64,000 nt of DNA from a virus, in the IMG/VR virus record IMGVR_UViG_3300022928_002150, positions 31,809 through 95,808 of that record, one strand, 5' to 3'. The notes under the pieces are model-generated. The model ran no database searches, was not told the DNA's origin, and saw nothing but the letters and a program-made list of their open reading frames with translations. A program made the position numbers and the translations under genes. Below are positions 42,420 to 63,410 of this stretch, one piece after another; within the stretch, counting starts at the first letter, position 1; the number at the start of each line of letters is the position of its first letter.

Positions 42420-42610
42420 ACAATCATAATCCCTACCGATATACCTATTGCCATCATACAAATCCACCCCATAATTTTAATTGCTCTCATTATTCTGTCT
42501 TCCACTTCTTCAAATCCTGTTATTGGGTTGGGCATAGACTTCTTTCTACGATCATAAGCCCCGTTCCTCCACTTAGAGCCCTTTCTTCTCTCTACGCTTC
42601 TAGTTGTCAT
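42416..42610 (-). CDS. 64-residue membrane protein between thyX and mazZ-like genes
   Basis: A basic cytoplasmic N-terminal half (TTRSVERRKGSKWRNG) precedes one C-terminal membrane helix (IMGWICMMAIGISVGIMIV). The ATG at 42610 lies within the last codons of thyX and the TGA overlaps the next ATG, so it is coupled on both sides. It is a tail-anchored small protein of unknown function. Confidence 0.65.
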   Translation of the reverse strand: MTTRSVERRKGSKWRNGAYDRRKKSMPNPITGFEEVEDRIMRAIKIMGWICMMAIGISVGIMIV

Positions 42611-43280
42611 GTTGTTCGACCGCCTTGCATACACTGGGAAAGTGTACTTCTAAGATCTCCCAGCATTTATCTGCAACTTCCATGTGCTCCGGTTGTGTTC
42701 CGTGACCTCGTCTTAGGTCACAGTAATGAATCCAAGATCGAAGAGTACCAGACATATACAGTGTTGTCTCTGTCAACCCCTCTGGAAGAAGCGCTCTCGC
42801 CTGTTCTTTGGCTATACCGTTATGAAGGGCCATCTCATAATAATCTTTTGCAGTTTGAGCGACTTGAGCCTGCATCTCACTGAATACTTCTTGGGCCTTT
42901 CTTTGGCGATCAGCATCTTCGTCTACTTCACTAAGCTGCCTATTGGTAGGGTGTTGTTTTCGTGCTTCCCTATTTGTAACAAACGACTCGCTCACAGCAT
43001 ATCTCTGAGAAAACTCTTGGAAAGAGAAACTTCTGTGCCTTAAGATTTGTCTACTAATGTCTCTAGTAGTTTTGATTTCCATTGTAACACTAACCATCTC
43101 AAATGGGCTCCAGTGATCCTCTTTGATAAGATAGCCCAGTAGTTTGCTGGAAGTTTTAGTGTTATTCTGGTTTGCGGGATTGCTAACCCGAGCTGCAAAA
43201 GCAATAAGATCTTCTGCATTGTGACAACCTGTTTGAGCACTAGGAGTTGTCATCCCTACTAAACTTACTTCACTTCTCAT
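42600..43280 (-). CDS. thyX: Flavin-dependent thymidylate synthase
   Basis: ThyX makes dTMP from dUMP using FAD, NADPH and methylene-folate. The signature RHRSFSFQEFSQRY (RHRxxSxxExSxRY) is complete. FEMVSVTMEIKTTRDISRQILRHR and the C-terminal LRSWIHYCDLRRG region also fit. The start at 43280 is behind AAGGATAAG and overlaps the iscU stop by 11 bases. The longer frame to 43334 lies inside iscU. It gives 226 residues, a normal ThyX length. Confidence 0.95.
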   Translation of the reverse strand: MRSEVSLVGMTTPSAQTGCHNAEDLIAFAARVSNPANQNNTKTSSKLLGYLIKEDHWSPFEMVSVTMEIKTTRDISRQILRHRSFSFQEFSQRYAVSESFVTNREARKQHPTNRQLSEVDEDADRQRKAQEVFSEMQAQVAQTAKDYYEMALHNGIAKEQARALLPEGLTETTLYMSGTLRSWIHYCDLRRGHGTQPEHMEVADKCWEILEVHFPSVCKAVEQHDN

Positions 43281-43650
43281 TCTTATCCTTATAATCTTTA
43301 ATTGCTGCTTTAATAGCATCCTCTGCGAGAACACTACAATGAATTTTTACCGGAGGTAGTGCCAATTCTTCTGCTATATCTGAGTTGCTAATATCATTAG
43401 CAGAATCCAAGGTTCTTCCCTTAACCCACTCAGTGAGTAGAGAAGAGCTAGCAATTGCACTTCCACATCCGTATGTTTTAAACTTTGCATCTAAAATTAC
43501 TCCTTCATCAGATACTTTTATCTGCAAGCGCATAACATCCCCGCAAGCAGGAGCGCCTACCATGCCGGTACCAATATCTTCGGCATCATCAAATCTTCCT
43601 ACATTTCTAGGATTTTCATAGTGATCCATTACTTTATCTGAGTATGCCAT
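43270..43650 (-). CDS. iscU: Fe-S cluster scaffold protein IscU
   Basis: This 126-residue, full-length IscU retains all catalytic features: YSDKVMDHYENPRNVG, GAPACGDVMRL (first Cys and the Asp next to it), YGCGSAIASSS (second Cys), LPPVKIHCSVLAEDAI (LPPVK chaperone-binding motif and third Cys). IscU assembles [2Fe-2S] clusters with host IscS and passes them on. No other isc or suf gene is present, so it must use host partners. It lies in the operon with thyX and overlaps its neighbours, so it is a phage gene and not host flanking DNA. Confidence 0.93.
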   Translation of the reverse strand: MAYSDKVMDHYENPRNVGRFDDAEDIGTGMVGAPACGDVMRLQIKVSDEGVILDAKFKTYGCGSAIASSSLLTEWVKGRTLDSANDISNSDIAEELALPPVKIHCSVLAEDAIKAAIKDYKDKNEK

Positions 43651-59371: not shown

Positions 59372-59748
59372 TATAGTATTCCTTCTATCATATTCATTAA
59401 TACAGCAGTACCACTTACAGCACTGCCTATCATGATTGCTTTGTCATTCCAAACACTACCTACAAATACCCAGCTGCAAGCAGCCACGAAGTAAGCAAGT
59501 TGCCCAACATTTTCAAATCCTGCACTCATGAGAAATACGCCAGTCACTCCAAAGAGTGTAGCAGCCCACTTCACATAGCTATCAATAGTACCAGTAGGTG
59601 TTACTGGTGTCATGTCATCTACTTGAGCTTGCAGTTCCTCCATCTCATGCTTGAGCCGCTTCTTCTCTGCATTGAGCTCCATAGCAAGACGACCAGCTTT
59701 AGACATCGTACTGTCTTGAAACTTTTCTTTTATCTCTTTATCTTCGAT
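59371..59748 (-). CDS. Coiled-coil membrane protein, two to three helices
   Basis: A polar N-terminal coiled coil (MELNAEKKRLKHEMEELQAQVDD) precedes hydrophobic segments (AATLFGVTGVFLMSAG, LAYFVAACSWVFVGSV, AIMIGSAVSGTAVLMNMI). The start is uncertain: GTG 59748 has GGAG eight bases before it; ATG 59706 and ATG 59787 are alternatives. The arrangement resembles membrane proteins involved in lysis control or superinfection exclusion, but this is inference. Confidence 0.65.
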   Translation of the reverse strand: MEDKEIKEKFQDSTMSKAGRLAMELNAEKKRLKHEMEELQAQVDDMTPVTPTGTIDSYVKWAATLFGVTGVFLMSAGFENVGQLAYFVAACSWVFVGSVWNDKAIMIGSAVSGTAVLMNMIEGIL

Positions 59749-59938
59749 CACCGTCGTAAGCTCCTTCCATATACGTTCCTGGCACACTGAAATATGCTCT
59801 CACTACATGAAGCGAGCGTAGTAATGCGTCATCTTGCCAATAGTTTGGAGCTACTTCATCCATCGCCATCTCAATAGCAGCATCAAGTTCTTCTAGCACA
59901 ATCTTGTCCAGCCCTTCACTTGTAATATACTCTCTCAT
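59738..59938 (-). CDS. 66-residue helical protein downstream of tmRNA
   Basis: Starting at ATG 59938 behind AAAAGGCAAAAAA, the protein is acidic and helical (GLDKIVLEELDAAIEMAMDEV) with NYWQDDALLRSLHVVRAYF. It lies just after the terminator of the tmRNA transcript, so its expression would depend on read-through or an unseen promoter. No family recognised. Confidence 0.6.
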   Translation of the reverse strand: MREYITSEGLDKIVLEELDAAIEMAMDEVAPNYWQDDALLRSLHVVRAYFSVPGTYMEGAYDGDRR

Positions 59939-59957
59939 TTTTTTGCCTTTTGCTATT

Positions 59958-59996
59958 AAAAAAATTCGTCCCACACTTTGATGACAAGGCAGTGGG
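59958..59996 (-). terminator. Terminator of the tmRNA transcript
   Basis: On the minus strand CCCAC TG CCTTG TCAT CAAAG T GTGGG forms an interrupted 10-bp stem, then ACGAA and seven T. It lies directly after the tag-coding piece and gives the tmRNA precursor a defined end. Confidence 0.75.
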
Positions 59997-60282
59997 CTCC
60001 TCGCAAGATTAGGCCGCTAAGGCGAGCTCTTGTTCGTAAACGTCGTTTGCGTTTATTTTAGGTTTTCGTCCATTTACGGGAGGTTGCTGCCCGATTCTCC
60101 ACTTGCTTTTCGATTGCTTGTCGATACTGAGTTCAGCCCCGTCAAAAACACATAGGCTGCGAAACTGTTGAGTTTATCGACTTACTTTGTATTCCTATGT
60201 GCTTTTGGTGGAGCTGACGGGACTTGCACCCGTGTCCAAACTTTCTATTACAAGTTTCTACGAATATTTTAGTCTGCGATGC
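59997..60282 (-). ncRNA. ssrA: Circularly permuted two-piece tmRNA
   Basis: Read on the minus strand the order is acceptor piece (about 60282-60206), intervening segment (60205-60141), coding piece (60140 to about 59997). The acceptor piece ends GGACACGGGTGCAAGTCCCG then TCAGCTCCACCA: a T-arm and encoded CCA. The coding piece starts GGGGCTGA at 60140; GGGGCTG pairs with CAGCTCC in seven pairs, including the G3-U70 wobble needed for alanine charging, the same stem as E. coli tmRNA. A D-loop-like AUCGAC follows. P2 pairs 60106-60094 with 60265-60250, and TGCGA (60005-60001) pairs with TCGCA (60279-60275). The tag frame 60050-60009 reads ANDVYEQELALAA-stop, resuming at GCA after AAAUAAAC. The intervening segment is a hairpin with CACATAGG/CCTATGTG. 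It needs host SmpB and processing. Confidence 0.93.
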
Positions 60283-60451
60283 ACCAGTGTCGAACTGTCG
60301 AAGGCACGAAACCGCAGATATTTTTTACCCAGTCTAAAGATGCAGGGTCTATAGAATAGTCTCGTCCGCCGTAGCGTACTACAAATTTTTCTGGAACTTC
60401 ACAGGGAAATCCGTACTTTTCACCTTCGTCAAAGGTTAGAAAAACTCTCAT
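60269..60451 (-). CDS. 60-residue protein encoded just ahead of, and overlapping, the tmRNA
   Basis: MRVFLTFDEGEKYGFPCEVP, VVRYGGRDYSIDPASLDWVKN and CGFVPSTVRHWCIAD look like a small folded protein. The start is set at 60451 because the longer frame to 60568 contains the promoter at 60482-60510. Its TAA (60269-60271) lies in the GACUAA segment at the beginning of the tmRNA acceptor piece, so the mRNA and the tmRNA share one transcript and about a dozen bases. Cutting out the tmRNA would remove the end of the message. Confidence 0.6.
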   Translation of the reverse strand: MRVFLTFDEGEKYGFPCEVPEKFVVRYGGRDYSIDPASLDWVKNICGFVPSTVRHWCIAD

Positions 60452-60481: not shown

Positions 60482-60510
60482 ATTATACCTGTTTTTATTT
60501 TCAAAGTCAA
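60482..60510 (-). promoter_or_regulatory. Sigma70-type promoter for the tmRNA transcript
   Basis: Minus-strand TTGACT, 17 bp, TATAAT, with AAAAAATATTC upstream. Predicted start near 60475; it reads the 60-residue gene, then the permuted tmRNA, to the terminator at 59958. Confidence 0.88.
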
Positions 60511-61107: not shown

Positions 61108-61491
61108 CTAGGTGATTAAAAATTCGTCTGAAGGAGACCTGTAAGGGTCTTGAGGGGTATCAGTCTGTTGAGCACCCGCTGTAGCTTTAGTTAGGGCGTC
61201 TTCTAGTGCTTTTAATGAGGCTTTTGGAGCTTTATCAAGCCCTGTAAGGGACTCTGGCTCGCATAAGAGCATATCTGCAATTGAATTTACAATTTCTACT
61301 TTCGTGATCGGCACATCACCAGTCTTAGATCTATAGACTTCTCTTCGGTACACGCCTTCGCGTGAGAGTTTTCCGATTACTGATTTCGTACTTTTTCTAT
61401 ACTTTTCTGCAAGCGCAGACACAGTTTCCTTGCTTGGATTTCGCACATACTCTTGTATAAGAGCCTGAGCCTCCTCCTGGCTATAGTTCAT
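61108..61491 (-). CDS. HTH protein of the phage Myb/SANT-like family
   Basis: The 127-residue protein has an N-terminal module YSQEEAQALIQEYVRNPSKETVSALAEKYRKSTKSVIGKLSREGVYRRE (in outline). It shares the xxSVxxKLSREGVY recognition-helix end with the paralog at 63029, and the C-terminal ITKVEIVNSIADML...ASLKALEDAL segment with it and with 40908. The linker carries a KTGDVP turn. A hairpin of the CCCG-CTTCT type follows the stop. Probably DNA-binding and regulatory. Confidence 0.8.
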   Translation of the reverse strand: MNYSQEEAQALIQEYVRNPSKETVSALAEKYRKSTKSVIGKLSREGVYRREVYRSKTGDVPITKVEIVNSIADMLLCEPESLTGLDKAPKASLKALEDALTKATAGAQQTDTPQDPYRSPSDEFLIT

Positions 61492-62024: not shown

Positions 62025-62053
62025 ATTATATGATACTTTTGTTAAAAAGTCAA
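62025..62053 (-). promoter_or_regulatory. Sigma70-type promoter for AbrB-like/HTH unit
   Basis: Minus-strand TTGACT, 17 bp, TATAAT, with AAAAAAGTTC upstream. Directly follows the terminator of the structured RNA. Confidence 0.85.
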
Positions 62054-63028: not shown

Positions 63029-63331
63029 TTACGCGTTGTTGTTAAAGGTTAGCACCAATGCTTCTAGGTCGTTCTTAGAAGCTTTTGATAAGCTAGGCAA
63101 AGATACCCCTGTTACTTCTTCAATATGTCGTACTAAAGTCTCTTTGGTTACACCGTCGCTCTTGCGAACAGGAACCTGGGGTATATATACGCCTTCTCGA
63201 GAGAGCTTAGCAATAATGCTTCGTGGAGTTTTTTCGAATTGAACTGCGAGTGCCTCTACAGTTTCACGAGTTGGGTTTTGTACATATACGCTAGTTATCT
63301 CCAAAGTCATTTCTTCTGTGTAATTACTCAT
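63029..63331 (-). CDS. HTH protein of the phage Myb/SANT-like family
   Basis: The 100-residue protein has an HTH module ending TPRSIIAKLSREGVYIPQV, nearly the same as the module at 61108 (TKSVIGKLSREGVYRREV), and a C-terminal VTKETLVRHIEEVTG...ASKNDLEALVLTF helix pair as in the 40908 and 61108 paralogs. It is the shortest two-part member and has its own consensus promoter. Confidence 0.8.
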   Translation of the reverse strand: MSNYTEEMTLEITSVYVQNPTRETVEALAVQFEKTPRSIIAKLSREGVYIPQVPVRKSDGVTKETLVRHIEEVTGVSLPSLSKASKNDLEALVLTFNNNA

Positions 63332-63381: not shown

Positions 63382-63410
63382 ATTATAGTAGTATTTAGGT
63401 TATTTGTCAA
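63382..63410 (-). promoter_or_regulatory. Sigma70-type promoter for HTH gene at 63,029
   Basis: Minus-strand TTGACA, 17 bp, TATAAT, both perfect, with an A7 tract upstream. It overlaps the end of the metallopeptidase-like gene. Confidence 0.87.

Follow-up and report, generated by a model that had tools for sequence, protein, structure and literature searches.

The course of trans-translation is well established: two-piece tmRNAs are processed by nucleases, charged by AlaRS through a G3-U70 pair and brought into the ribosome in an SmpB-dependent manner, after which the stalled peptide is tagged, released and degraded. Permuted, two-piece forms are also encoded by phages. Buchholz et al. described one in 2022 in the Methylophilales phage Melnitz, and of 133 unique tmRNA structures from phages ARAGORN classed 53 as two-piece, 50 of these 53 coming from marine or aquatic samples (PMC9004378). 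The tmRNA database of 2025, in which the Rfam family RF04321 (tmRNA_permuted) was introduced, contains 79 unique phage sequences (PMC11915505). Our own pattern scan of IMG/VR matched at least 120 contigs, some of which may contain host DNA, and ARAGORN called a permuted tmRNA in 99 pattern loci among the matches listed. Two Brevundimonas phages isolated and sequenced to completion, vB_BgoS-Bajun (ON529858) and vB_BpoS-Kikimora (ON529857), likewise carry permuted tmRNAs, scoring 87.9 and 57.7 bits against RF04321. The suspicion, voiced in the original prediction for the locus described here, that a permuted tmRNA in a phage would be new is therefore contradicted by published examples (PMC9004378), by the tmRNA database (PMC11915505), by IMG/VR and by the Brevundimonas phages. 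The Kikimora gene (ON529857.1, 154566-154911, minus strand; L266) is absent from the annotation of its record and is missed by ARAGORN. Several viral loci in our scan (L043, L048, L067, L077, L100 and L033) yielded unusually long or odd ARAGORN tags, for example ANENFAPEAFTSLDMSMDRELLAA in two loci; either ARAGORN errors or genuine long tags may lie behind these.

The locus lies in a 64-kb window, bases 31809-95808 of a 95,808-base IMG/VR record that is a metagenomic assembly and may be incomplete. The phage encodes a terminase, tape measure, major tail and minor tail proteins, a D5-like regulator, an NAD-dependent ligase, a ribonucleotide reductase and ThyX, together with a family A DNA polymerase whose nearest relatives from isolated phages, at 43-44% identity, belong to Demerecviridae (Aeromonas phages TS3 and Akh-2, and Vibrio phages VspSw_1, Thalassa and phi 3). 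Judged by gene content and polymerase identity, the carrier is probably a T5-like siphophage. Beside the ThyX gene (42600-43334) lies a gene at 43270-43650 (minus strand) for an IscU/NifU_N iron-sulfur scaffold protein, with a nearly full-length Pfam match (1.7e-54). We found no integrase, SmpB or tRNA in the record. A near-identity search among isolated phages and a distant DNA search of plasmids returned no relative, while a distant search of phages gave mostly short matches, many in prophage-like records and consistent with ssrA attachment sites. A scan of genomes for the T-arm pattern matched many unrelated phyla and a few Alphaproteobacteria, and so pointed to no single host.

When the window was compared with all of Rfam, the minus strand from 60265 to 60009 matched RF04321 over its full length (model positions 1-213 of 213) at 107.8 bits (E 4.6e-20), against a gathering threshold of 47 bits. 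The alphaproteobacterial family RF01849 (alpha_tmRNA), a check proposed with the original prediction, also matched, at 67.3 bits against a gathering threshold of 50 bits, from 60272 and over model positions 40-270 of 355. ARAGORN, run independently, called a permuted tmRNA ('tmRNA*') and divided it into an acceptor half aaagtttggacacgggtgcaagtcccgtcagctccacca, followed by a 5' half ggggctgaactcagtatcgacaagcaat, the resume sequence aataaacgcaaacgacgt and the tag ANDVYEQELALAA. By its sequence, then, the locus is a permuted, two-piece, alpha-like phage tmRNA with a tag of its own, far beyond chance, much as had been predicted. The prediction had placed it at 59997-60282 and had given no strand; the gene is indeed there, on the minus strand, but it probably starts nearer 60272 and its end runs past 59997 to 59970. 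The features, in 5' to 3' order, are as follows.

60482 to 60510, minus strand: sigma-70-like site TTGACT-17-TATAAT, 11 of 12 consensus bases, a putative promoter by consensus match only
60269 to 60451, minus strand: 60-aa open reading frame (MRVFLTFDEG...) ending where the acceptor piece starts
60206 to 60272, minus strand: acceptor piece, the 3' half of the tRNA-like domain with a 5' extension (RF04321 from 60265, RF01849 from 60272, ARAGORN 3' tRNA domain); 5' end approximate
60141 to 60205, minus strand: 65-nt intervening segment, a strong hairpin with 12 closing pairs, from its fold and the spacer length
60113 to 60140, minus strand: 5' half of the tRNA-like domain, with GGGGCUG, a D-like loop containing AUCGAC, and CAAGC (ARAGORN 5' tRNA domain and covariance model alignment)
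60085 to 60112, minus strand: 3' strands of the inter-piece helices (GCAAGU/ACUUGU and GAAU/AUUC), from a cofold of the two full pieces and covariation of the outer helix
60009 to 60050, minus strand: tag frame GCA...UAA encoding ANDVYEQELALAA (ARAGORN and translation)
59970 to 59996, minus strand: 3' hairpin CCCAC-UGCCUUGUCAUCAAAGU-GUGGG after the tag, from fold position and a loop compared by eye
59738 to 59940, minus strand: downstream open reading frame (MREYITSEGLDK...), start codon position approximate

The arrangement has the features of RF04321 members: the CCA-bearing acceptor piece lies 5' of the GGGG/tag piece, with the 65-nt spacer between them, and an open tag frame runs from the resume codon to a stop with a hydrophobic AA end (ANDVYEQELALAA*). 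The acceptor piece comprises a T-arm (ACGGG/CCCGU), the acceptor 3' strand CAGCUCC, and the discriminator A with an encoded CCA (60209-60206); it ends in ...CAGCUCCACCA at 60206. The coding piece starts with GGGGCUGA at 60140, and the acceptor stem GGGGCUG/CAGCUCC forms 7 of 7 pairs, including the G3-U70 alanine identity pair. The CAAGC of the 5' half pairs with GUUUG of the acceptor piece. Within the spacer, the 62 nt from 60205 to 60144 fold at -14.1 kcal/mol compared with a shuffle mean of -7.0 (z -3.16). The tag frame (GCA AAC GAC GTT TAC GAA CAA GAG CTC GCC TTA GCG GCC TAA) encodes the 13 residues ANDVYEQELALAA, and the conserved resume context AAUAAACGCAAACGAC starts just 5' of this frame and overlaps it. 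The encoded CCA, the tag frame, the G3-U70 pair, the hairpin-forming segment and the inter-piece helices had each been anticipated, and each was found. Beyond the tag, the RF01849 match ends at position 270 of 355, and the region appears as a diverged hairpin, a likeness judged by eye; its position and, to the eye, its loop CCUUGUCAUCAAA resemble those of the CCUWGYAACAGAA-loop hairpin found behind the tag of many related viral tmRNAs. A U7 tract at 59964-59958 follows the hairpin and is a possible terminator.

Set beside the alphaproteobacterial tmRNA of RF01849 (the Caulobacter type, within RF04321), the phage RNA has in common the piece order, G3-U70, the inter-piece helices, the resume sequence, a tag of the form AND...AA and, as far as its loop can be matched by eye, a hairpin 3' of the tag, but it differs in its lower score against that model, its diverged 3' part, its GGGGCUG stem and its own 13-residue tag. 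Like the tmRNAs of Melnitz and related marine phages, it is phage-encoded, permuted and of the alphaproteobacterial group (PMC9004378). Melnitz, however, is a myophage with a glutamine riboswitch predicted on its tmRNA, whereas the present phage is probably T5-like and no riboswitch scored above the Rfam threshold in the 64-kb window. Bajun and Kikimora differ as well, being jumbo phages (207 and 313 kb) whose tmRNAs lie beside tRNAs and carry a different tag. Among the five Demerecviridae isolates nearest by polymerase we found no permuted tmRNA, and no one-piece tmRNA above the cut-off. For T5-like phages, a tmRNA of this kind may be a new occurrence; the locus offers a clean and structurally intact example from a group whose five tested isolates are without one. 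It leaves existing knowledge of tmRNA unchanged and lends support to the view, already published, of ribosome rescue as an accessory function that recurs among phages.

We next consider selection on the structure. When cofolded at full length, the two pieces adopted the tmRNA fold with its inter-piece helices. The interaction energy of a truncated two-piece construct was matched or bettered by 444 of 500 shuffles, and since this construct failed to take the tmRNA fold, a covariation test was used instead. In this test the register was set by a GGAG anchor motif and not by pairing; of 38 aligned sequences, the 15 without the anchor were left out. Across the remaining 23 distinct viral tmRNAs, the outer inter-piece helix had standard pairs in 110 of 115 cells, compared with 19-60 when one strand was slid by 1-3 positions and a maximum of 88 in 5000 permutations. 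The acceptor stem of the pattern loci is mostly fixed by the search pattern, leaving only pair 5-68 free, and this pair was standard in 82 of 82 distinct viral loci among the matches listed, with several pair types represented.

Conservation points the same way. A related contig (G049), with a DNA polymerase about 60% identical, carries a permuted tmRNA (L186) that was located by covariance model and not by pattern; it scores 99.3 bits against RF04321 and bears the tag ANDEIYALAA, and ARAGORN made no call there. Its acceptor stem, GGGCGAG/CUCGUCC, differs from GGGGCUG/CAGCUCC by three compensatory pair exchanges with G3-U70 kept. Because a diverged relative thus retains the gene with compensatory changes, the gene appears to be under selection. 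It was absent from most relatives searched, nearly all of which are short fragments. L186 lies among tRNA genes, of which at least four are clustered within 3.3 kb, a setting unlike the present record.

On these grounds we consider it highly probable that the locus encodes a working two-piece tmRNA, that is, a complete and selectively maintained permuted ssrA of alphaproteobacterial type in a T5-like siphophage, which would be expressed early, under a strong sigma-70-like promoter, and would draw on the AlaRS, SmpB and proteases of its host. A more ambitious version, in which this is the first permuted tmRNA of the T5-like lineage, an early gene whose tag is adapted to change the course of degradation (for instance, towards particular host proteases or away from them) rather than to duplicate host rescue, we regard as unlikely.

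The absence of a detected SmpB means that tmRNA function would rely on the host protein, and this sharing lends some weight to another proposal, in which the phage RNA is charged or bound by SmpB but mainly competes with or modifies host trans-translation, as does an RNA consisting only of a tRNA-like domain (phage DS6A). Such DS6A-like RNAs inhibit tmRNA (PMC11915505, PMC4131195). A pure inhibitor would nevertheless have no use for the tag frame, resume context and LAA end that are intact both here and in L186, which makes this proposal quite improbable. Very unlikely, and rejected, is a recent capture of host ssrA through imprecise excision of an ssrA-integrating prophage, which would leave the gene functionless in the phage. 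ssrA is a common integration site, and several prophage-like records match only an ssrA end, as attachment sites would; yet no integrase was found, the gene is complete and sits between phage genes on the same strand, it is unchanged in an independent contig, and the diverged relative keeps its counterpart with compensatory changes. Assembly chimerism, in which host ssrA was joined to a phage contig of metagenomic origin, is barely conceivable given a divergent homologue in the related phage and a separate IMG/VR contig of the same phage that matches this one at 99.5% identity over some 4.7 kb surrounding the gene, with 401 bp around the gene identical.

For the working tmRNA, we infer the following course from transcription to benefit for the phage. 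Transcription, probably initiated at the sigma-70-like promoter (60510-60482), would yield one RNA. Host tRNA-processing nucleases would cut out its spacer hairpin, RNase P would generate the GGGG end, and trimming by a 3' nuclease would leave the encoded CCA, while the acceptor stem and the inter-piece helices would hold the two pieces together. Host AlaRS would then charge the RNA via G3-U70 and host SmpB would deliver it to stalled ribosomes, where translation would resume on GCA, add ANDVYEQELALAA and end in release of the tagged peptide, its LAA end directing it to host ClpXP or ClpAP. The phage would benefit from ribosomes kept free during its takeover of the cell. The tag ANDVYEQELALAA can be searched for in proteomes.

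The putative promoter lies upstream of both the 60-aa open reading frame and the tmRNA, and the two are probably co-transcribed. A second contig of this phage species carries the frame too, but no relative of it turned up outside the species, and the small open reading frames flanking the tmRNA gave no PHROG match. The region contains 20 sigma-70-like sites, compared with 12.4 expected from shuffles (sd 3.3), and these sites suggest early expression of the tmRNA, as has been proposed for Melnitz and its relatives (PMC9004378). Between 58400 and 64000 on the minus strand, near-perfect sites at 63410 and 62528 (each 12 of 12 bases) and at 62053 and 60510 (each 11 of 12) precede clusters of small open reading frames with no assigned function, an arrangement that resembles an early region. 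Two frames in this stretch, at 61108-61491 and 63029-63331 (minus strand), have clearly similar N-terminal halves (EEAQALIQEYVRNPSKETVSALAEKYRKSTKSVIGKLSREGVY and EEMTLEITSVYVQNPTRETVEALAVQFEKTPRSIIAKLSREGVY) and are probably paralogous DNA-binding proteins; the former has a weak match to phrog_1725.
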